Positions 13,474 through 22,868 of a DNA stretch of 64,000 bases are shown here, in pieces. The stretch is from Paludisphaera mucosa (GTDB taxonomy: Bacteria > Planctomycetota > Planctomycetia > Isosphaerales > Isosphaeraceae): assembly GCF_029589435.1 (NCBI RefSeq), contig NZ_JARRAG010000002.1, positions 4,154,001-4,218,000 on the forward strand. Reading direction: 5' to 3'. Below the pieces are notes generated by a model, which worked only from the letters and a program-made list of their open reading frames with translations, did no database searches and had not been told where the DNA came from. Positions within the stretch are counted from its first letter, which is position 1. Each line of letters starts with the position of its first letter. The position numbers and the translations under genes are program-made.

Positions 13474-13593
13474 GGCGAACGGCCCCTCATTTGCGATCTG
13501 TGCTCGGACATGGACACCGAACTTAGCCGATCCCGAGCCGGCCTCAAAGAGGAGCAGGATCGGGCCCCGTGGGCGTATCGCCGCACGAAGGGA

Positions 13594-13622
13594 CTGGCCA
13601 TCCGTCAACCGAGACGTACAAT
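13594..13622 (+). promoter_or_regulatory. Promoter placing transcription start at the exonuclease ATG
   Basis: CTGGCC (13594-13599), a 17-bp spacer and TACAAT (13617-13622). The -10 box ends six bases before the ATG at 13629 and no Shine-Dalgarno sequence precedes that ATG, so the mRNA may be leaderless. The -35 match is modest; the -10 match is good. Confidence 0.5.
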
Positions 13623-13628
13623 GACCCG

Positions 13629-14726
13629 ATGACCCCCGACGACCTTCTGCGACCCACCGATCTGGGCCTGTACTGCGAGGCCGGCGACTTCTACGTCGAT
13701 CCCTGGCGGCCCGTGCCGCGGGCCGTGATTACGCACGCCCATGCCGACCACGCCTGCTGGGGCTGTGGGCGGTACCTCTGCTCCGAGGAGGGGGCGGGAG
13801 TGCTGCAGGTGCGGATGGGTCGAGACGCCGTCATCGACGCCTTGCCGTTCGGCGAGGCCCTGACGATCCAGGGGATCCGTGTCTCGCTGCATCCGGCCGG
13901 GCACATCCTCGGCTCGGCGCAGGTGCGGCTGGAGCATCGCGGGCGGGTTTGGGTCGTCTCGGGCGACTACAAGGTCGAGCCCGACGCCACCTGCACGCCG
14001 TTCGAGCCCGTCCGCTGCGACGTCTTCGTGACCGAGTCGACCTTCGGCCTGCCCATCTACCGCTGGCCGACGCAAGGCGTGGTGTTCGACGAGATCAACG
14101 CCTGGTGGCGGGCCAACCGCGACGCCGGCAAGGCCAGCCTGCTGCTGGGCTACGCCCTGGGCAAGTCGCAGCGCCTGCTGTCGGGGCTCGACCCGAGCAT
14201 CGGCCCGATCTACACCCACGGGGCCGTCGAGAAGCTCAACCGCGCCTACCGCGAGGGGGGCGTCGCCCTGCCGCCCACCGAGTACGCCGGGGCCGCCGTC
14301 CGGGGCAAGAGCTGGGCCGGGGCCATGATCGTCGCGCCCCCCTCGGCGCACGGCACGCCCTGGGCGCGCAAGTTCGCCCCGCTCTCGACCGGGATCGCCT
14401 CGGGCTGGATGACCATCCGCGGCACCCGCCGCCGCAAGGCGCTCGACCGCGGCTTCGTCCTGTCCGACCACGTCGACTGGCCCGGCCTCCTGGGCGCGAT
14501 CGAGGCCACCGGGGCGAGCCGGGTCCTGGTGACCCACGGCTACACCTCGGTCGTCGTCCGCCACCTCCGCGAGCAGGGGCTCGACGCCGAGGTCCTCGCC
14601 ACCCGGTATGAAGGCGAAGGCGACGCCCAGGACCGAGCCGAGGGCGAGGCGATCGACGCCGAGGCCCAGGAACTCGAGGTTGTCGTCGACGCCGTCGCCG
14701 CGACCGACGCCGAGGAGGCCCCATGA
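13629..14726 (+). CDS. DNA ligase-associated exonuclease (metallo-beta-lactamase fold)
   Basis: A 365-aa member of the family found beside bacterial ATP-dependent ligases. The metal motif HAHADH is at residues 36-41, followed by 'LHPAGHILGSAQV', 'VSGDYKVE' and a C-terminal 'FVLSDHVDWPGL' and 'VTHGY', as in beta-CASP-like nucleases. It probably processes DNA ends before sealing. The stop overlaps the ligase start in ATGA, so translation is coupled. Full clusters usually add an Lhr-type helicase and the phosphoesterase PdeM; both are absent here. The C-terminus after about residue 335 is a Glu/Asp/Ala-rich tail. An upstream in-frame ATG exists, but the -10 box argues for 13629. Confidence 0.9.
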   Translation: MTPDDLLRPTDLGLYCEAGDFYVDPWRPVPRAVITHAHADHACWGCGRYLCSEEGAGVLQVRMGRDAVIDALPFGEALTIQGIRVSLHPAGHILGSAQVRLEHRGRVWVVSGDYKVEPDATCTPFEPVRCDVFVTESTFGLPIYRWPTQGVVFDEINAWWRANRDAGKASLLLGYALGKSQRLLSGLDPSIGPIYTHGAVEKLNRAYREGGVALPPTEYAGAAVRGKSWAGAMIVAPPSAHGTPWARKFAPLSTGIASGWMTIRGTRRRKALDRGFVLSDHVDWPGLLGAIEATGASRVLVTHGYTSVVVRHLREQGLDAEVLATRYEGEGDAQDRAEGEAIDAEAQELEVVVDAVAATDAEEAP

Positions 14727-16318
14727 GGGACTTCGCCCAGCTCTACGCGGCGCTCGACGAGACGACCCGGACGGGGGAGAAGGTCGAGGCGCTGACCTGC
14801 TATTTCGAGAGCGCCCCGCCGAGCGACGCCGCCTGGGCCGTCTACTTCCTGATCGGGCGGAAGCCCAAGCAGGTGATCCCCTCGAAGAAGATCCGCGAAT
14901 GGGCGACGGCCGAGGCGGGCGTCCCCGACTGGCTCTTCCAGGAGTCGTACGACGCCGTGGGCGACGTGGCCGAGACCATCGCCCTGCTGCTCCCGCCGTC
15001 CGAAAGGTCGACCGACCTGCCGCTCGCCGAGTGGGTCGAGGAGCGGCTACTCCCCTTGCGAGGCGCCGACGAGGAGGTCCAGCGGGCCGCGATGCTGGAG
15101 GCCTGGCGGGCGATGGACCGTCCCCAGCGGTTCGTCTGGAACAAGCTGATCAGCGGCGGGTTCCGGGTGGGCGTCTCGCAGCAGTTGGTCACACGGGCCC
15201 TGGCCAAGGTGGGCGGGGTCGAGCCGGCGGTCGTCGCCCACCGTCTGATGGGGGATTGGGAGCCGGGCCCGCGGTTCATCGGCCGGCTCCTGGCCCCCGA
15301 CGCGGCCGACGCCGACCACAGCCGGCCGTATCCGTTCTGCCTGGCCTACGGGCTCGAAGGAGAGCCCGACGCCCTCGGCCCCGTCGAGGACTGGCAGGCC
15401 GAGTGGAAGTGGGACGGCATCCGCTCGCAGCTGATCCGCCGCGGCGGCGACACGTTCCTCTGGTCGCGCGGCGAGGAACTGGTGACCGACCGCTACCCCG
15501 AACTGGCCACGCTGGGCGCCTTCCTCCCCGAGGGGACGGCGATCGACGGCGAGATCCTGCCGTACCTCGAAGGCGTCCCGCTGCCGTTCGCCCAGCTCCA
15601 GCGGCGGATCGGCCGGAAGACGGTGGGCAAGACGATCCTGGCCGAGGTCCCCGTCGTCCTGATCGCCTACGACCTCCTCGAATTCGAGGGCCGCGACCTC
15701 CGCGCCGAGCCGTTCCAGCAGCGCCGGGCGTTGTTGGCCGGCCTGGTCGAGCGGGTCGGCCGGTCCGACCGCCTGATCCTCTCGCCGGTGGTCGCGGCGA
15801 CCTCGTGGGAGGCGATGGCCGCGGCCCGGCAGGAGTCGCGGCTGCACCAGGCCGAGGGCCTGATGCTCAAGCGGCTGAACTCGCCGTACCACGTCGGCCG
15901 CAAGCGGGGCGACTGGTGGAAGTGGAAGGTCGACCCGTTCACCGTCGACGCCGTGCTGACCGCCGCCCAGCGCGGCAGCGGCAAGCGGGCCAGCCTGTAC
16001 ACCGACTATACCTTCAGCGTCTGGGACGACGACCGCCGCCTGATCCCGTTCGCCAAGGCCTACTCCGGCCTCACCGACGCCGAGATCGCCCGGGTCGACG
16101 CCTTCGTCCGCCGCAACATGGTCGAGAAGTTCGGCCCCGTCCGCACCGTCAAGCCCGAGCTGGTCTTCGAGCTCGCCTTCGAAGGCATCCAGCGCTCGCC
16201 GCGCCACAAGTCGGGCATCGCCGTCCGCTTCCCCCGCATCCTCCGCTGGCGTCAGGACAAGCCCGCCGACGAGGCCGACACCCTCGACTCCATCCGCAGC
16301 ATGCTGCCGCCGGCGTGA
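14723..16318 (+). CDS. ATP-dependent DNA ligase, bacterial LigB/LigC-like
   Basis: A 531-aa ligase with an N-terminal DNA-binding domain (about 1-200), a nucleotidyltransferase domain starting with motif I 'EWKWDGIR' (Lys229 is the adenylated residue), 'DGEILPY' and 'EGLMLKR' motifs, and a C-terminal OB domain. It seals nicks using ATP and most likely works in repair with the exonuclease it overlaps by 4 bp. Length fits the family. Replication presumably relies on a NAD-dependent ligase elsewhere. Confidence 0.93.
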   Translation: MRDFAQLYAALDETTRTGEKVEALTCYFESAPPSDAAWAVYFLIGRKPKQVIPSKKIREWATAEAGVPDWLFQESYDAVGDVAETIALLLPPSERSTDLPLAEWVEERLLPLRGADEEVQRAAMLEAWRAMDRPQRFVWNKLISGGFRVGVSQQLVTRALAKVGGVEPAVVAHRLMGDWEPGPRFIGRLLAPDAADADHSRPYPFCLAYGLEGEPDALGPVEDWQAEWKWDGIRSQLIRRGGDTFLWSRGEELVTDRYPELATLGAFLPEGTAIDGEILPYLEGVPLPFAQLQRRIGRKTVGKTILAEVPVVLIAYDLLEFEGRDLRAEPFQQRRALLAGLVERVGRSDRLILSPVVAATSWEAMAAARQESRLHQAEGLMLKRLNSPYHVGRKRGDWWKWKVDPFTVDAVLTAAQRGSGKRASLYTDYTFSVWDDDRRLIPFAKAYSGLTDAEIARVDAFVRRNMVEKFGPVRTVKPELVFELAFEGIQRSPRHKSGIAVRFPRILRWRQDKPADEADTLDSIRSMLPPA

Positions 16319-16328
16319 AGCGGCTCGC

Positions 16329-17369
16329 TCAGGAGCCGGAACGCCTGGGGCTCATCTCGTCGCGGAGCGACTTGCCGGCGCCGCCGGACTCGAAGACGTG
16401 CAGGCCGAAGCGTTCGGAGAGTTCCTTGCAGACGCGGACGCCGCGGACGCTGTTCCCCTTCTCGTCGAGGGGGGGCGAGAAGACGCCGATGCCGGCGACG
16501 CCGGGGATGACGGCGACGATCCCGCCCCCCACGCCGCTCTTGGCGGGCAGGCCGATCCGGTAGGCCCACTCGCCGGCGAAGTCGTAGATCCCGCACGAGA
16601 GCATGATGCTCAGCAGGTCCTTGACGTACTCGGCCTTCAGGGCGCGCTCGCCGGTGATCGGGTTCACGCCGCCGTTGGCGAGGGTCGCCCCCATCACGGC
16701 CAGGTCGTGGCAGTCGACCAGCACGGAGCATTGCTGGAAGTAGAGTTCGAGCGTCTCGTCGACCCGATCCTCGATCATCCCGAAGTTCATCATCAGGTGC
16801 GCGATCGCCCGGTTGCGATGGCCCGTGGCGCGCTCCGAGAGGAACGTCGCGTTCTCGACGTAGGCCTCGCGGCCGATGTAGCGGCGGAACATCTCCATGA
16901 GCCGCTTGAAGCGTTCGGCCTGGTCCTTCCCCTTGATCAGGTCGGCCGTGGCGATGGCCCCGGTGTTGACCATGGGGTTCAGGGGCCGGTTGGTCGCCTC
17001 GTCCAGCACGATCGAGTTGAACGCCTCGCCGGTCGGCTCGACGCCGACCTTGGACAGGACGTGCTCGCGGCCATGGTCTTCCAGGGCCAGGCCGAAGACG
17101 AACGGCTTGGAGATCGACTGGATGCTGAAGAGCCGGTCCGAGTCGCCGACGTCGAACCGCAGGCCGTCGGCCGTCACCACGCTGATGGCGAACCAGTCCG
17201 GGCTCGCGCCGGCCAGCTCCGGGATGTACGAGGCCACCGCGCCCGAGTTGATCGGGGCGTGGTCGCGATGCAGCTTCTGGAGGGTCTCGCGGAAGGGGGC
17301 GGCCGCCGACTTCATCTTGCCCATCAGGGCGTCGAGATCGCCGCGATCCGATTTCGAGTCTGCAGCCAC
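16329..17369 (-). CDS. glsA: Glutaminase A
   Basis: A 346-aa serine-dependent beta-lactamase-fold glutaminase (glutamine to glutamate plus ammonia). The catalytic SxxK is Ser85-Ile-Ser-Lys88 in 'SIQSISKPF', with 'NPMVNTGAI' and the late '[12 protein letters not shown]' motif. Length is about 35 residues above the usual 310, from short extensions at both ends. It lies 82 bp after the MinD-like gene in an apparent operon with it and the FHA gene, an odd partnership. A small CGGCTC/GAGCCG hairpin overlaps its 3' end at 16321-16338 and could separate it from the convergent ligase. Confidence 0.93.
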
Positions 17370-17451
17370 GGTGCGTCCACTCCAGTTTCGCGGTGTGAAG
17401 GGGCTTCGCGGGCGGGACGCGTCCGCGCGGGGGGCGGCCCCGCAGGAGGAT

Positions 17452-18222
17452 TCAAGTGAGGAAGTGGTCGGCCACCTGCTGGAGGCCGCGGGTCAGGGGA
17501 TGGTCGGGGAACCGCATCGCGAAGATCCCGGCGCTCCCCAGCCGGGCGATGTCGCCGTCGAGCGGCAGCAGGCCCACGACCTGGGCCTTGTAGGCGGCCT
17601 CGACCTGGGCGCGCAGCAGGTCGACGTCCATCCCGGGGGGGACCTTGTTGACGATGATCTGGAGGTCGTTCACCTCGAGCCGGCGGGCCAGCTCGACCGT
17701 GACCGCCGTCCCCTGGAAGTCCTGGTTGTCGGGTCGCATGATCAGCAGGAGCGTGTCGGAGAGGGCGATCGAGAGCAGGGTCTCCTCGTTGACGCCGGGG
17801 TGGGTGTCGATGAAGAGATAGTCCAGGTCCAGCTCGCGGATCAGGGCGCGGAAGCCGTCGGTCAGCAGGCCCACGTCGTAGCCGTCGCGGAGGATGCGGG
17901 CGATCTCGCCGGCCCGGACGCTCGACGGGATCAGGATGACGCGGCCCCGGGGCTCGCCGTTCGGCAGCCGCTCCTCGGGCCACGACACGACCTCGCGCGC
18001 CGCCTGCTCGATGCGGCACCGCCCCCACAGGTAGTCGTTGAGGGTGAACTCGACCGACTCTTCCTGGAGCCCGAAGATCACGTGGATCCCGGGCGAGTGG
18101 ATGTCGGTGTCGATCACCCCGACCCGCTTCCCGGCCAGCGCCAGCAGGGTCGCCAGGTTGGCCGTCGTGTTCGACTTGCCGGTTCCACCCCGGAACGAGT
18201 GGACGGAGATGATTTTGGCCAT
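17452..18222 (-). CDS. MinD/ParA-like P-loop ATPase
   Basis: A 256-aa SIMIBI ATPase. Its P-loop is FRGGTGKSN at residues 10-18, so the signature Lys of the deviant Walker A motif is Arg11. Walker A' '[10 protein letters not shown]' and the '[14 protein letters not shown]' switch are intact. MinD-type proteins form ATP-dependent dimers that position complexes at membranes or poles. There is no C-terminal amphipathic MinD helix clearly visible. It lies 73 bp after the FHA gene and before glsA, so it may be a partner of an FHA-regulated complex. Confidence 0.88.
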
Positions 18223-18295
18223 GACTGCTTTCGGGGTAGATGATCATCCGGCGCGGCGAGCCCCCTCGCGGATCACCGACGGTCGAAGGCGGCTC

Positions 18296-18805
18296 TCATC
18301 GGGTCTCGTTCGGGTCCGACGTCCGCGGGCCCTTCAGGCGTTTCAGCGAGTCCTTGAGGCTGCGGAAGACGTCGCCCTCGCTGATCTCGTCGACCTCTTT
18401 CCTGAGCTTCTCGACGTCCAGGAGCAGGAGGGGGAGCTGGTCCGGGACCTGGCCGACCGTGGTCTCCTCGCAGGTCGCCTCGCCGTACGGGTCGAGGCGG
18501 ATGAAGGGGCCCTTCACGCCCAGCCGGAAGAGGAATCCCGTCAGGGCCTGCGGTTCGAGCCGGAGGCCGAGGAGTTTCCGGGGGCCGCAGAAGATCCCCT
18601 GGGGGCTCAGCACGGTCAGGATCCAGGCGTCGCCGTCCCTGGTCAGGTACACGTGCTCGCGCGAGACGAGCTGATCGGCGACGACGACGTCGTTGTCCGT
18701 GGAGCGGCCGATCCGGATGAGGTCTTTGCCTTCGAAGAACCAATGCTGACGCGGCCTGCCGTTCGGCGTATCCAGCAGGACCAGGGCGACCCTGGAATCC
18801 CTCAC
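18296..18805 (-). CDS. FHA-domain protein
   Basis: A 169-aa cytoplasmic protein. Residues about 10-85 form an FHA domain with 'IRIGRSTDNDVVV' and 'VSREHVYL', the Gly-Arg and Ser-x-x-His residues that read phosphothreonine. The C-terminal half is charged and helical ('LDVEKLRKEVDEI'). GTG at 18805 is chosen because GGGAAAGG lies seven bases upstream; the frame continues open to 18973 but looks non-coding. It heads the MinD-like/glutaminase operon. The phospho-partner is unknown. Confidence 0.8.
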   Translation of the reverse strand: MRDSRVALVLLDTPNGRPRQHWFFEGKDLIRIGRSTDNDVVVADQLVSREHVYLTRDGDAWILTVLSPQGIFCGPRKLLGLRLEPQALTGFLFRLGVKGPFIRLDPYGEATCEETTVGQVPDQLPLLLLDVEKLRKEVDEISEGDVFRSLKDSLKRLKGPRTSDPNETR

Positions 18806-19104: not shown

Positions 19105-20526
19105 TCACGCCAGGAGGTCCTGGACCACGGTCCCCTTCACGTCGGTCAGGCGGAAGTCGCGGCCGGCGTGGCGGAAGGTCAGGCGGGTGTGGTCGAGGCC
19201 CAGCAGGTGGAGGATCGTGGCGTGCAGGTCGTGGACGTGGACGCCGTCCCGGGCGACGTGGATGCCGTGCTCGTCGGTCGCGCCGTGGACGTGCCCGGCC
19301 TTGACGCCGCCGCCGGCCATCCAGGTCGAGAAGGCCCAGTGGTGGTGCTCCCTCCCCTTGGCGGCGGCCGACTCGTGGTAGGGGGTGCGGCCGAACTCGG
19401 TGGTCCAGACGACCAGGGTGTCCTCCAGCAGGCCGCGCGACTTGAGGTCGCGGATCAGGCCGGCGATCGGGCGGTCGACGTTGCGGGCGAGGGGGACGTG
19501 GGTCTGCATGTCGCCGTGGGCGTCCCAGTTGTTCGACGCGCCCGAGTCGACCAGCTCGATGAACCGGACCCCGCGCTCCGACAGCCGGCGGGCGACCAGG
19601 CATTGCCAGGCGAACCCCTGGGTCGAGCCCCGCTCCAGGCCGTAGAGCTTCAGGGTGGCGTCGGACTCCTGCGACACGTCGAAGGCGTCGGGGGCCTCGT
19701 GCTGCATGCCGAAGGCGGTCTCGAACGACTGGATCCGCGCGGCCAGCCGGGGATCGTCGCCGCGGGCCGCCGAGTGGTCGCGGTTGAGGTCCTGGATCCG
19801 CGCGATCTCGCGCTCCTGGAGCGAGGCCGAGCGGAGCCGGCGATGGAGGTCGGCGATCGGCTCGGGGCCGGGCGTCACCCGCGTCCCCTGGTGGCAGCCG
19901 GGGAGGAAGTCGGCCCCCCAGGCCTGCTCGCCGGCGTAGGGGGTCTGGGGGGCGATCACCACGAACGACGGCAGGTTCCGATTGAACGTCCCCAGGCCGT
20001 AGCTCACCCAGGCCCCGACGCTCGGCCGGGCGAAGGTGATCGAGCCGGTATGCGCCTGGAGCGTCGCCTCGTAGTGGTTCGTGTGGTCCGACTTCATCGA
20101 CCGGATCACGCAGAGGTCGTCGACGCAGCCGGCGATCTCCGGGAAGAGCGAGCTGACCTCGATCCCGCTCTCGCCGTGCTTCGCGAACGACCAGTCCGGC
20201 CGCTTGAGGTAGCGGGTGTACTTGCCGCGCTTCCCCTGCCACTCGTCGATGGCGATGGTCTTGCCGTGGTCGGCGAACAGGTTCGGCTTGGGGTCGAACG
20301 AGTCGACGTGCGACACGCCCCCCGTCATGTAAAGCATGATCACCCGCTTGGCCCGTGCGGGGAAGTGGGGGACGCGAGGGGCCAGGGGGTCGGCGGGGGC
20401 CGAGCTTCCCGCGTCCGCGGCCGAGAGGTCGGCGAGGATCCCCGAGAGCCAGAGCGAGCCGCAGCCCAGCCCGGCCGCGGAGCGGATCAGGTCGCGCCGG
20501 GTGACGTCGGTCGGTCGGTCGGCCAT
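19105..20526 (-). CDS. DUF1501 family exported protein
   Basis: A 473-aa protein with a Tat-like N-terminus (TRRDLIRSAAGLG) and the DUF1501 fold, related to sulfatases and alkaline phosphatases: 'MLYMTGGVSHVDSFDPKP', 'HYEATLQAHTG', 'VWTTEFGRTPY' and a terminal HD-rich part 'VHVHDLHATILHLLGLDH'. In planctomycetes it is usually paired with a PSCyt1/DUF1549/DUF1553 protein, as here, with a 17-bp gap. The pair acts outside the cytoplasmic membrane, possibly on sulfated polysaccharides; this is not proven. GAGG lies upstream of the ATG at 20526. Confidence 0.92.
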   Translation of the reverse strand: MADRPTDVTRRDLIRSAAGLGCGSLWLSGILADLSAADAGSSAPADPLAPRVPHFPARAKRVIMLYMTGGVSHVDSFDPKPNLFADHGKTIAIDEWQGKRGKYTRYLKRPDWSFAKHGESGIEVSSLFPEIAGCVDDLCVIRSMKSDHTNHYEATLQAHTGSITFARPSVGAWVSYGLGTFNRNLPSFVVIAPQTPYAGEQAWGADFLPGCHQGTRVTPGPEPIADLHRRLRSASLQEREIARIQDLNRDHSAARGDDPRLAARIQSFETAFGMQHEAPDAFDVSQESDATLKLYGLERGSTQGFAWQCLVARRLSERGVRFIELVDSGASNNWDAHGDMQTHVPLARNVDRPIAGLIRDLKSRGLLEDTLVVWTTEFGRTPYHESAAAKGREHHHWAFSTWMAGGGVKAGHVHGATDEHGIHVARDGVHVHDLHATILHLLGLDHTRLTFRHAGRDFRLTDVKGTVVQDLLA

Positions 20527-20543
20527 GCCCCCACCTCGCTTCC

Positions 20544-22868
20544 TCAGTCGACGTAGACGAATTCGTTGGTCCCGAACAGGATCCGCGCGACGCTGGCCCA
20601 GGCGCGGCGGTCGAGCGCCTCGGGGGGGTCGCCGTCGCCGACCAGGTCGGCCCGGCACTGGTCGAGATGGCCGCGCATCCGCTCGACCTCGGCGGCCGAA
20701 GCGGGCCGGCCCAGGACGATGCGGAACGCCCGGTCGATCCGCGCCGCCGGGTCCGCGGTCGCCGCGATCAGGCGGGCGGCGAAGTCCTCGGACGCCCGGT
20801 GCACGAGCGGGTCGTTCAGGAAGAAGAGCGACTGCGTCGGCACGGTCGTGGCATTCCGGCCCTCGGTGCTCGAATTGGGGTCGGCCCCGTCGAACAGGGC
20901 CAGGAACGGGTGCCGCCGGATCCGCTGGGTCATCAGGTAGACGCTGCGGCGGTCGCTGGGGTAGACGGCCAGGAACGGGGCGTGCTGGGTGTACCCCCAT
21001 TGTGCGACCGGCGGGAACGGGTGCGCGGGCGCCCGGCCGGGGTCGAGGTCGCCCGCGACGAGCAGGATCGCGTCGCGGATCTCCTCGGCGTCGAGCCGGC
21101 GCCGGTTGAAATGGCCCAGCCAGACGTTCTCGGGGTCGGCCTCGGCTTCGGCCGCCGAGGTCGATGACGCTTCTGTCGCCGAGGCCATTTGGTACGCGGC
21201 CGAGAGCAGGATCCGGCGGTGGAGCGATTTGATCGAGCAGCCGTCCTGGAGGAATCGGGAGGCCAGCCAGTCGAGCAGCTCGGGGTGCGAGGGGGGCGTC
21301 CCCTTGACGCCGAAGTTGCTCGCCGACGCCACGAGGCCCCGGCCGAAGTGGTGTTGCCACACGCGATTGACGAGCACCCGGTACGTCAGCGGATTGCCGC
21401 GGTCGGTCAGCCAGGCCGCCAGCTCGCGACGGCCGCTGCCGGCGGCGATGGCGGGGCGGTCGCGGCCGACGAGGACTTCCGGGAAGCCCCGCCGGACCTC
21501 GGCCCCCAGGTTTTTGGGGTCGCCCCGGCGCTGGATCCGCGAGTCCGCCGGCTGGGGCGACTCGGCCACCGCGTACGCCAGCTCGGCGGCCTCGGCGGGC
21601 CGGCCGGGGGCCGGGGGCATTGCCACGAAGTCCTTGGGGCGCTTCGTCTCCTCGCCGCCGGGGAAGGGGTAGCGGGTGCTCTCGAAGATCCCGTAGAGCG
21701 CGTAATAGTCGGCCTGGCGGATCGGGTCGAACTTGTGGTCGTGGCACCGGGCGCAGGCGATCGTCAGGCCCAGGACCGACTTGCCGAGGGCGTCGATCGT
21801 GTCGTCGATCGTGAGGTTGTGATAGTTCTGGGGGTCGAACCCGAATCGTCGCGAGACGGCGATGAACCCGGTCGCGATCACCGCCGCGCGAGCCCGATCG
21901 GCGGGGCCGGCCGCGGCCAGGAGGTCGCCGGCGACCTGCTCGGCGAGGAACCGGTCGTAGGGCAGATCCGCGTTGAAGGCGTCGATCACGTAGTCGCGAT
22001 AGCGGTACGCCTCGGGGACCGGATAGTCGGCGGTCTCGCCGGCGGTGTCGGCGTAACGGACGAGGTCGAGCCAGCGCCGGCCCCAGCGCTCGCCGTACTG
22101 GGGCGTCGCGAGCAGGCGGTCGATCAGCCGGGCGTAGGCGTCGGGCGCGGGATCGGCCTCGAAAGCGTCGACGTCCTCGGCGGTGGGCGGGAGGCCGATC
22201 AGGTCGAACGTCGCCCGACGGATGAGCGCCCGTCGGCTCGCCGGCCGTGCGGGCGATCGGCCCCGGGCCTCCAGCTTCTCCAGCACGAAGCAATCGATCG
22301 GCGAGGACGGCCAGGCCCGGTCGCGAACGTCGGGGATAGGCGGGTCGGTCAGCGGGCGGAACGACCAGTGCGAGCGGCCGGCCTCGATGTCGGGGCCTCC
22401 GGTCGTCTCGGCTGCGACCGGTGCGGGGGCGGCGTCGACGGTGGCCCCCGGCCAGGCCGCGCCTTGCTCGATCCAGCGGCTCAGGGCCCCGATCTCGACG
22501 TCGTCGAGCCTGCGGTCGGGGGGCATCCGGGGTTCGTCGTGGTAGCGGACCGCGCGGATGAGCAGGCTGTCCTCGACGTTCCCCGGCACAATCGCGGGGC
22601 CGCTGTCGCCCCCTTCGAGGATCTTGGCCCGCGAGCTGAGGTCCAGCCCCCCACGCACCTTGACCTTTGCCTCGGCCGTCTTCGCCGGCCCGCCGTGGCA
22701 GCCGAGGCAGCGCCCGACCAGGAGCGGCCGGACCGACTTCTCGAAGAACTCCTCGGCCTCACCTCGGGGCGGGGCCTCGGCCGACGTCGCGATCCCCGCG
22801 CAAGCGGACGCCAGGATCCATGCCGCCAGGATTCGCCCCGCACCGAGTTGTCTCGTCGAGGAATTCAT
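20544..22868 (-). CDS. PSCyt1/DUF1549/DUF1553 planctomycete cytochrome protein
   Basis: A 774-aa protein with a signal peptide (to about residue 30), a planctomycete-type cytochrome c domain with haem motif CLGCH near residue 54, DUF1549 (about 165-370, with 'CARCHDHKFDPI') and DUF1553 (about 470-740, with 'LTYRVLVNRVWQHHFGRGLV'). It is exported and probably binds haem. It is the first gene of the DUF1501 pair and is 115 bp downstream of the ferredoxin gene. Such pairs are strongly amplified in planctomycete genomes. Confidence 0.93.
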   Translation of the reverse strand: MNSSTRQLGAGRILAAWILASACAGIATSAEAPPRGEAEEFFEKSVRPLLVGRCLGCHGGPAKTAEAKVKVRGGLDLSSRAKILEGGDSGPAIVPGNVEDSLLIRAVRYHDEPRMPPDRRLDDVEIGALSRWIEQGAAWPGATVDAAPAPVAAETTGGPDIEAGRSHWSFRPLTDPPIPDVRDRAWPSSPIDCFVLEKLEARGRSPARPASRRALIRRATFDLIGLPPTAEDVDAFEADPAPDAYARLIDRLLATPQYGERWGRRWLDLVRYADTAGETADYPVPEAYRYRDYVIDAFNADLPYDRFLAEQVAGDLLAAAGPADRARAAVIATGFIAVSRRFGFDPQNYHNLTIDDTIDALGKSVLGLTIACARCHDHKFDPIRQADYYALYGIFESTRYPFPGGEETKRPKDFVAMPPAPGRPAEAAELAYAVAESPQPADSRIQRRGDPKNLGAEVRRGFPEVLVGRDRPAIAAGSGRRELAAWLTDRGNPLTYRVLVNRVWQHHFGRGLVASASNFGVKGTPPSHPELLDWLASRFLQDGCSIKSLHRRILLSAAYQMASATEASSTSAAEAEADPENVWLGHFNRRRLDAEEIRDAILLVAGDLDPGRAPAHPFPPVAQWGYTQHAPFLAVYPSDRRSVYLMTQRIRRHPFLALFDGADPNSSTEGRNATTVPTQSLFFLNDPLVHRASEDFAARLIAATADPAARIDRAFRIVLGRPASAAEVERMRGHLDQCRADLVGDGDPPEALDRRAWASVARILFGTNEFVYVD

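Follow-up and report, generated by a model that had tools for sequence, protein, structure and literature searches.

Three neighbouring genes in a 64,000-nucleotide stretch of Paludisphaera mucosa DNA (contig NZ_JARRAG010000002.1; the whole stretch is called the window here, and positions count from its first letter) encode an FHA protein, a MinD-like ATPase and the glutaminase GlsA. They are a real conserved module, with an ATPase of a known superfamily and marked by an unusual kind of partner tag. What is observed of the module is the genes themselves, their kept order, a C-terminal tail on the FHA protein and its co-occurrence with the ATPase, an invariant threonine and the predicted folds. 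The initial annotation, made from the letters of the window, had described a three-gene set of these families with small gaps; all three open reading frames (ORFs) are present at that place on the minus strand, and Pfam and TIGR models confirmed the families. The genes are transcribed in the order FHA, ATPase, GlsA, with intergenic gaps of 73 and 82 bp, and their features are as follows.

18296..18805, minus strand: gene of the FHA protein, a phosphothreonine reader with C-terminal tail (PF00498, AlphaFold2 model, Foldseek)
18566..18718, minus strand: FHA domain with the conserved GR...SRxH residues (PF00498, residues 86-136)
18458..18460, minus strand: invariant linker threonine, the second T of EETTV, candidate phosphorylation site (28-protein alignment, model)
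18335..18415, minus strand: C-terminal two-helix tail, proposed ATPase-docking tag (tail profile, model helices)
17452..18222, minus strand: MinD-like ATPase of the RGG type (Pfam, AlphaFold2, comparison with solved folds)
18172..18195, minus strand: Walker A motif FRGGTGKS with Arg11 (translation)
16329..17369, minus strand: glutaminase GlsA (PF04960, TIGR03814)

The start of the FHA gene is uncertain; GTG at 18805, preceded by AAAGG, is the likeliest, and other in-frame starts lie as far as 18973. All ORF sets used below are mechanical six-frame ORFs, and greedy gene calls took no part in the conclusions.

Conservation of the trio and its ATPase

The gene order was followed in a class sample of 297 genomes (ATPase called at E <= 1e-30) and in a phylum sample of 199 genomes (E <= 1e-20). 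The ATPase is present in 39 of the 297 class genomes, and 26 of these 39 keep the order FHA-ATPase-GlsA on one strand (families f1, f2, f3, f83, f86, f87, f91 and f94), that is, in all eight ATPase-holding families apart from f82. The flanks of the trio are scrambled: among 1,040 ORFs at the 26 loci, no flanking ORF is related in more than two other families. Since 26 of 39 genomes keep the order in eight families with no conserved flanking ORF, the trio is more than chance. GlsA and the ATPase occur together in 27 of the 297 genomes, of which 39 have the ATPase and 47 have GlsA. Separation of glsA from the FHA and MinD-like genes in most relatives, the outcome named in the initial annotation as speaking against its proposal, was thus not found, the three standing together in 26 of 39. 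The expectation that the order would be kept in distant planctomycetes was borne out in these 26 class genomes of eight families, but not at the 13 loci of f82, and the phylum sample is mixed. The ATPase occurs there in nine of 199 genomes, the own genome included, with the trio in three; in genome G198 the ATPase is accompanied by a tail protein of GAF type and by GlsA in convergent orientation, and the five genomes of other classes (L082-L086) show no FHA, GlsA or tail in the fetched stretch around the ATPase. At 11 of the 13 f82 loci a different tail-bearing protein lies near the ATPase, and among the 13 f82 genomes any GlsA at all was found only in G477. The reading of the three genes as one unit nevertheless holds, given the order across eight families with unrelated flanks and the recurrence of the set, reordered, in cyanobacteria. 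In agreement with the initial annotation, the searches of open-access literature brought up no named system with this set and no paper on a MinD-like ATPase, an FHA domain and a glutaminase together.

The ATPase matches PF01656 (59.7 bits, cut-off 25.4), PF10609 (66.2, cut-off 27.1) and PF13614 (51.2, cut-off 27), i.e. CbiA, ParA and AAA_31. Its AlphaFold2 model has a pLDDT of 90.3, and the closest solved folds are MinD 1hyq (Z 30.2, rmsd 2.0, 230 residues aligned) and 4v03 (Z 29.5). Thus the protein has the P-loop fold of the ParA/MinD superfamily (CbiA/ParA family), although the curated MinD models are missed (TIGR01968, 61.5 vs 212.9 bits needed; TIGR01969, 87.1 vs 201.75). The signature Lys of the deviant Walker A motif is absent and Arg11 stands instead, at what we take to be the place where MinD and ParA carry that Lys. 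Arg occupies this position in all 116 homologous ORFs above 200 bits, a count in which three loci appear twice (L013, L030 and L031, with contigs as long as those of L141, L144 and L163). The motif reads R-GG-x-GK[ST] in 112 of them, and FRRGTGKS or FRRGAGKS in the other four, with Arg at the same place. The initial annotation had seen the Arg correctly. Arg11 is the norm of the ATPase family and no peculiarity of this member. Among named relatives, the ATPase of Paludisphaera soli comes closest (79% identity).

Some further ATPase genes deserve mention. A second paralogue with RRGTGKS or RRGAGKS occurs in Chloroflexota (L025, 14089-14883; L024, 11892-12689; L035, 14007-14882; L058, 13936-14793), and MFS-like ORFs sit between both paralogues at these four loci. 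In an Anaerolineaceae locus (L069, 1218-3149) a PrsW-type membrane protease and the ATPase share a single open frame. Upstream of the ATPase at L020 and L055 there are ORFs that by eye resemble STAS and RsbW-type proteins, and a SpoIIE-type phosphatase lies near it in Chloroploca, a partner-switching context.

The C-terminal tail and the proteins that carry it

The FHA protein scores 35.6 bits with PF00498 (cut-off 20.7; scored on the longer ORF from 18973). Its AlphaFold2 model has a mean pLDDT of 82.7 and a pTM of 0.60, and Foldseek matches it to the FHA domains 3po8, GarA 7rj3, OdhI 4qcj and DgcB 6hc0/6hc1. The model of the type VI FHA protein TagH is not reached (TIGR03354, 24.2 vs 120.25 bits). 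In an alignment of 28 planctomycete proteins (26 of the class sample plus those of L014 and L015), 13 columns are invariant, including G50, R51, S65, R66, H68, T133, F164 and L167. The first five are presumably the residues of the FHA binding loops with a role in phosphopeptide binding. With the fold and the conserved Arg, Ser and His of these loops, the protein qualifies as a phosphothreonine reader. T133 is invariant in 28 of 28 proteins and lies in a disordered part of the linker (residues 132-137, pLDDT <50) between the FHA fold and the tail; on balance we lean slightly towards this threonine being a phospho-switch.

Many otherwise unrelated proteins encoded beside the ATPase share a similar C-terminal stretch of about 50 residues. 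A first profile of this tail was built from 38 ATPase-neighbour proteins of other phyla, with no planctomycete FHA protein among them, and was used to search the 21,827 six-frame ORFs of 139 loci. It matches the C-terminus of all 28 planctomycete FHA proteins (E 4e-12 to 0.013), the protein of the window being the weakest (E=0.013), and among the 21,827 ORFs no match falls between E 0.016 and 1.5. A rhizobial VipB-like segment resembling the tail (L065, E 1.5, one locus) was taken as chance. Because the 139 loci had been fetched mainly around the ATPase, genome-wide tests weigh more. The model for these was an alignment of 47 of 87 tails, class members among them, so the test depends on class tails. 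In the own genome there is a single match, E 4.9e-13 with a model that includes that very tail, and nothing else at E <= 10. In the class sample the tail was found in 40 of 297 genomes, namely in 38 of the 39 with the ATPase (all but G348) and in two of the 258 without it; of these two, G444 has its match in an FHA protein at the edge of a contig, and G447 has a weak one in a 50-aa frame (E 0.003). After removal of the duplicates L013, L030 and L031, and of the short-flank copy wherever a locus had been fetched again with longer flanks, 82 of 106 ATPase loci show the tail in the fetched stretch. In the model the tail forms two helices (residues 148-159 and 162-174), and F164 and L167 are its invariant residues. 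We think it likely that the tail contacts the ATPase.

ATPase homologues of 48-79% identity are found in loci of Chloroflexota, cyanobacteria, Rhizobiales, Methylococcus and actinobacteria, among others, and loci with tail and ATPase come from planctomycetes, Chloroflexota, cyanobacteria, Pseudomonadota, actinobacteria and one Nannocystaceae genome. Besides the ATPase and a mostly antisense mixed cluster, the largest cluster of neighbouring ORFs contains HAMP, Cache or Tll0287-type receptors; it also contains short Rhizobiales proteins, coiled-coil-like by eye, as well as tail-less transporter-like and cyclic-nucleotide-binding ORFs (the Pfam tally covers 50 of its 58 ORFs, and a further scan 92 of 148 picked neighbours). 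The domains in tail-bearing proteins are FHA (trio), GAF (L081), PAS, Cache-HAMP, Tll0287 with HAMP or PAS, and CHASE3-HAMP-GAF, and a receiver alone or with HisKA or HAMP occurs in six scanned f82 tail proteins and in that of G207. Since the sensor domains vary while the tail stays, we read the FHA protein as an input module of the ATPase and not in the first place as a partner of the glutaminase; the shared tail speaks for the ATPase as its constant partner. It looks like one of several exchangeable sensors of one ATPase, as judged from these sequences. The FHA protein was therefore rightly placed in the unit by the initial annotation, which missed the shared tail and with it the place of FHA among several sensors. 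A second FHA protein with a tail, this one unlinked, is encoded in genome G205 (L185, 2417-3145), so one ATPase may serve two FHA sensors. The Scytonematopsis genome G503 holds at least two ATPase copies: one is accompanied by GlsA and by a tail sensor with PAS (L241, 3734-4543), another by a Tll0287-HAMP tail sensor (L037, 10001-10762).

The glutaminase and its linkage to the ATPase

GlsA scores 412 bits with PF04960 (cut-off 27) and 361.8 bits with the glutaminase A model TIGR03814 (cut-off 255.4), and its SIQSxSK segment aligns with the solved glutaminase 3agd. We take this Ser-x-x-Lys segment to be catalytic. By score and segment the protein belongs to the glutaminase A family, and hydrolysis of glutamine is predicted. 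It is the single glutaminase found in the own 8.2-Mb genome. Tandem glutaminases, with two PF04960-like domains per ORF, were seen in other genomes of the phylum (L091, L092, L093, L096, L103 and L106).

In cyanobacteria, the phylum of Laspinema, GlsA was found in 64 of the 194 genomes sampled. Thirty-three GlsA loci were inspected, 30 of them the best-scoring of the 64 genomes, and six of them (L191, L204, L227, L231, L232 and L236) have the ATPase immediately upstream of GlsA on the same strand, L191 and L204 coming from genomes selected for holding the ATPase. In five of the six (Laspinema, G503, G612, G643 and G675) a tail sensor follows downstream of GlsA, so that the order is ATPase-GlsA-tail sensor (L059, L239-L242), unlike the planctomycete trio; no tail was found at the sixth linked locus (G543). 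Elsewhere the Chloroflexaceae genome G517 has two GlsA genes, each preceded by a tail sensor, and the fetched stretches (L245, L246) show no ATPase. In Chloroploca about 4 kb separate the ATPase from a GlsA gene downstream of it. Among 49 genomes of other phyla, drawn from 65 ATPase loci, 16 gave a GlsA match, 15 of them above the cut-off; because only these 16 match, GlsA is an optional member.

A tree of 92 GlsA domains, which included 18 of the 28 trio GlsAs, bears on the origin of the linkage. The trio clade has a support of 97 and takes in genes of G105 and G251 that are not linked. The clade of linked cyanobacterial GlsAs has a support of 100, with two unlinked members inside (L234 and L237, genomes G627 and G629). 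The two clades together reach only 45. The Chloroflexota clade (100) is placed elsewhere, beside unlinked cyanobacterial GlsAs (95); L209, a third gene of Chloroploca resembling the linked L207 and L208, was mislabelled as unlinked in this tree. The single clade of linked GlsAs seen in a tree of 60 sequences was not upheld with 92 sequences and was dropped. As the linked GlsAs form no single supported clade, the linkage was probably formed more than once.

A proposed sensor-ATPase-enzyme scheme and its alternatives

The explanation we favour, and to which we give about an even chance, is a sensor-ATPase-enzyme module in which an RGG MinD-type ATPase is the hub, tail-tagged sensors are exchangeable, FHA would serve as a phospho-switch and GlsA would be the output. 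The hub would be the constant member, a distinct MinD-type family with Arg for the signature Lys, and the two-helix C-terminal tail of the sensors would contact it, the sensor being FHA here and GAF, receiver/HisKA, PAS, Cache-HAMP or CHASE3-HAMP-GAF elsewhere. A kinase would phosphorylate the invariant linker Thr of the planctomycete FHA protein, and the phosphorylated residue would be bound by the FHA domain either of that molecule or of one next to it, which may hide, expose or cluster the tails. The state of the tails would then switch the ATPase between nucleotide-bound dimer and monomer, and the state of the ATPase would control the assembly, activity or place of GlsA, and hence the local yield of glutamate and ammonia. 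The contact of tail and ATPase, the phosphorylation of the Thr and GlsA as output are thus the proposed parts of the scheme. The expectation that the tail binds the ATPase and thereby directs its cycle of nucleotide states is drawn by analogy with known ParA/MinD partner proteins, which according to passages of PMC10241942 touch the ATPase through short terminal peptides. That GlsA is a regulated output we hold to be moderately probable; the action of the ATPase on it is suggested by gene order. A wider architecture across phyla, in which any sensor could become an input of an RGG-type MinD ATPase by the two-helix tag, with a local output (in planctomycetes and cyanobacteria the glutaminase, in Rhizobiales perhaps a secretion machinery) and with the FHA form switched by linker-Thr phosphorylation, is put forward tentatively, as slightly doubtful. 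As far as the searches of open-access literature go, the module is unnamed and signalling by such a tag undescribed, and many ParA/MinD ATPases are termed orphans of unknown partner in the same passages of PMC10241942. Here sequence alone, by way of a short conserved tail, suggests the probable partner of an entire family of ATPases, and sensors of very different kinds converge on the same ATPase. If the scheme is true, signalling of this type would exchange the sensor but retain tag and ATPase, and in planctomycetes Ser/Thr phosphorylation would be tied to the breakdown of glutamine. The proposal of the initial annotation, that a phospho-signal could control the assembly of the ATPase and the release of glutamate or ammonia, stays a conjecture, which the invariant linker Thr renders specific and testable.

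Several observations weigh against the scheme. All 13 of the 39 ATPase genomes that belong to f82 show no FHA or GlsA match at the locus, in the sense of no phmmer match in the flanking stretch, and the stretch of L166 ends 183 bases past the ATPase. In G207, one of the 39, the ATPase is 37% identical, the P-loop motif is lost and the tail is about 22 kb off; G348 has the ATPase and no tail was found in its whole genome. Twenty-four of the 106 ATPase loci lack the tail in the stretch, L082-L086 included, some of these stretches being ended by a contig edge. When covariation of tail and ATPase was computed for 77 pairs (L021, L023, L032, L063 and L071 were omitted, besides duplicates and short-flank copies), it did not clearly exceed a lineage-aware null, which reached it in 5 of 60 shuffles with 33 groups, in 1 of 60 with 12 and in 0 of 60 with 6. 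The invariant linker Thr could be structural, and at the 26 trio loci there is no conserved flanking gene and hence no conserved kinase. As for the enzyme, no GlsA match was obtained in 33 of the 49 genomes of other phyla that have the ATPase. G105 and G251 have a trio-clade GlsA but no FHA or ATPase with it, and G627 and G629 each have a solitary GlsA that falls in the linked cyanobacterial clade.

The fold nearest to the ATPase is that of MinD (1hyq), and Cache/HAMP receptors bear the tail in other phyla, so a classical positioning role must be considered, in which the ATPase through the tail would place clusters of sensors, with GlsA as bound cargo, and GlsA activity would be unregulated. 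This we consider unlikely, though far from negligible: the planctomycete sensor is a small FHA protein, in the window without any further Pfam domain above cut-off, and an enzyme gene as constant neighbour is, to our knowledge, unusual in positioning systems. The characterised systems of this kind (the A/D ATPases, such as MinD-MinE, FlhG, ParC and McdA) share with the trio the ATPase fold and a dedicated, usually adjacent partner with a short conserved element. According to passages of PMC10241942, chemotaxis clusters are among the cargos that ParA/MinD ATPases position, and characterised partners stimulate the ATPase via a positively charged, disordered N-terminus. The trio differs by the Arg at the signature-Lys position, by a helical C-terminal tail, and by a partner that is a sensor, often with an enzyme gene attached. 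A different possibility is that the FHA protein binds and regulates the glutaminase directly, in the manner of the actinobacterial GarA and OdhI, with the ATPase as a separate passenger. GarA and OdhI are like the FHA protein in fold, in a Thr motif outside the domain and in a link to glutamate metabolism, and the linker here reads EETTV; GarA, as described in part of PMC12321487, receives its phosphate at an ETTS motif on the N-terminal side and governs glutamate metabolism through the enzymes that it binds. In the present proteins the conserved Thr is C-terminal, not N-terminal, of the FHA domain in 28 of 28, there is an extra tail and an ATPase partner, the enzyme is a glutaminase and not one of 2-oxoglutarate metabolism, and the tail goes with the ATPase even where the locus has no GlsA (f82, Rhizobiales). 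We therefore regard direct regulation of this kind as improbable.

A smaller weight still is given to two further explanations. The three genes might be merely co-inherited, in a cassette that is mobile or convenient, and have no function in common, which would suit the patchy spread (39 of 297 class genomes) and the persistence of GlsA genes where FHA and ATPase are missing; it is very improbable in view of the same trio in eight families with unrelated flanks and of the joining of ATPase, GlsA and tail sensor in a different order in cyanobacteria. The ATPase might instead be an accessory of a type VI secretion system (T6SS) that was recruited to other loci, GlsA being incidental. At the Rhizobiales locus L060 (4322-17011) the ATPase and a tail protein lie among genes for VipA, VipB, a Clp-type ATPase and ImpA/VasJ, ORFs of the VipA and VipB clusters occur at five loci, VipB is 9 kb from the ATPase in G373, and VipB was found in 22 of 39 ATPase genomes vs 92 of 258 others (Fisher p 0.02, uncorrected for relatedness). 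However, the own-genome VipB is 1.8 Mb from the trio, the trio has no conserved flanking gene, and 17 of the 39 ATPase genomes gave no VipB match; because of these 17, a T6SS was rejected as the general context, and this origin appears hardly credible. An ORF near the ATPase of G348 is TssK-like by eye (L168, 1333-2760).

Two other known systems resemble parts of the sensor-ATPase-enzyme scheme. DgcB of Bdellovibrio, according to part of PMC6733907, is phosphorylated and its FHA domain is bound by its own N-terminal region; it is a fold match (6hc0, 6hc1) and, like the FHA protein as proposed here, reads a phosphopeptide of its own protein, but its output GGDEF domain is in the same protein, where we propose a separate ATPase. 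The vWA-MoxR and related NTP-dependent conflict systems, in the part of PMC7159879 that deals with them, have MinD/ParA-like and FHA domains among their parts; their MinD/ParA-like domains are predicted to be inactive, whereas the P-loop is intact here, and no MoxR or vWA protein was found among the nine window ORFs given to Pfam. A role in anti-phage defence was not adopted as a reading: two PADLOC models, both PDC-M28B, gave weak P-loop matches to the ATPase, confined to residues 4-65 (41.2 bits) and 4-68 (29.4 bits), and the PADLOC models gave no match for the FHA protein or GlsA.

Around the trio, an ATP-dependent DNA ligase gene (14723-16318, plus strand) is convergent with glsA and is preceded by an ORF with a sub-threshold metallo-beta-lactamase match (13569-14726, plus strand); the two (13569-16318) resemble what we take to be a ligase-associated nuclease pair. 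Upstream of the FHA gene lies a pair of genes for DUF1501 and PSCyt1/PSCyt2/PSD1 proteins (19105-22868, minus strand), the relatives of which outside the own family were found near the trio in three f2 loci only.

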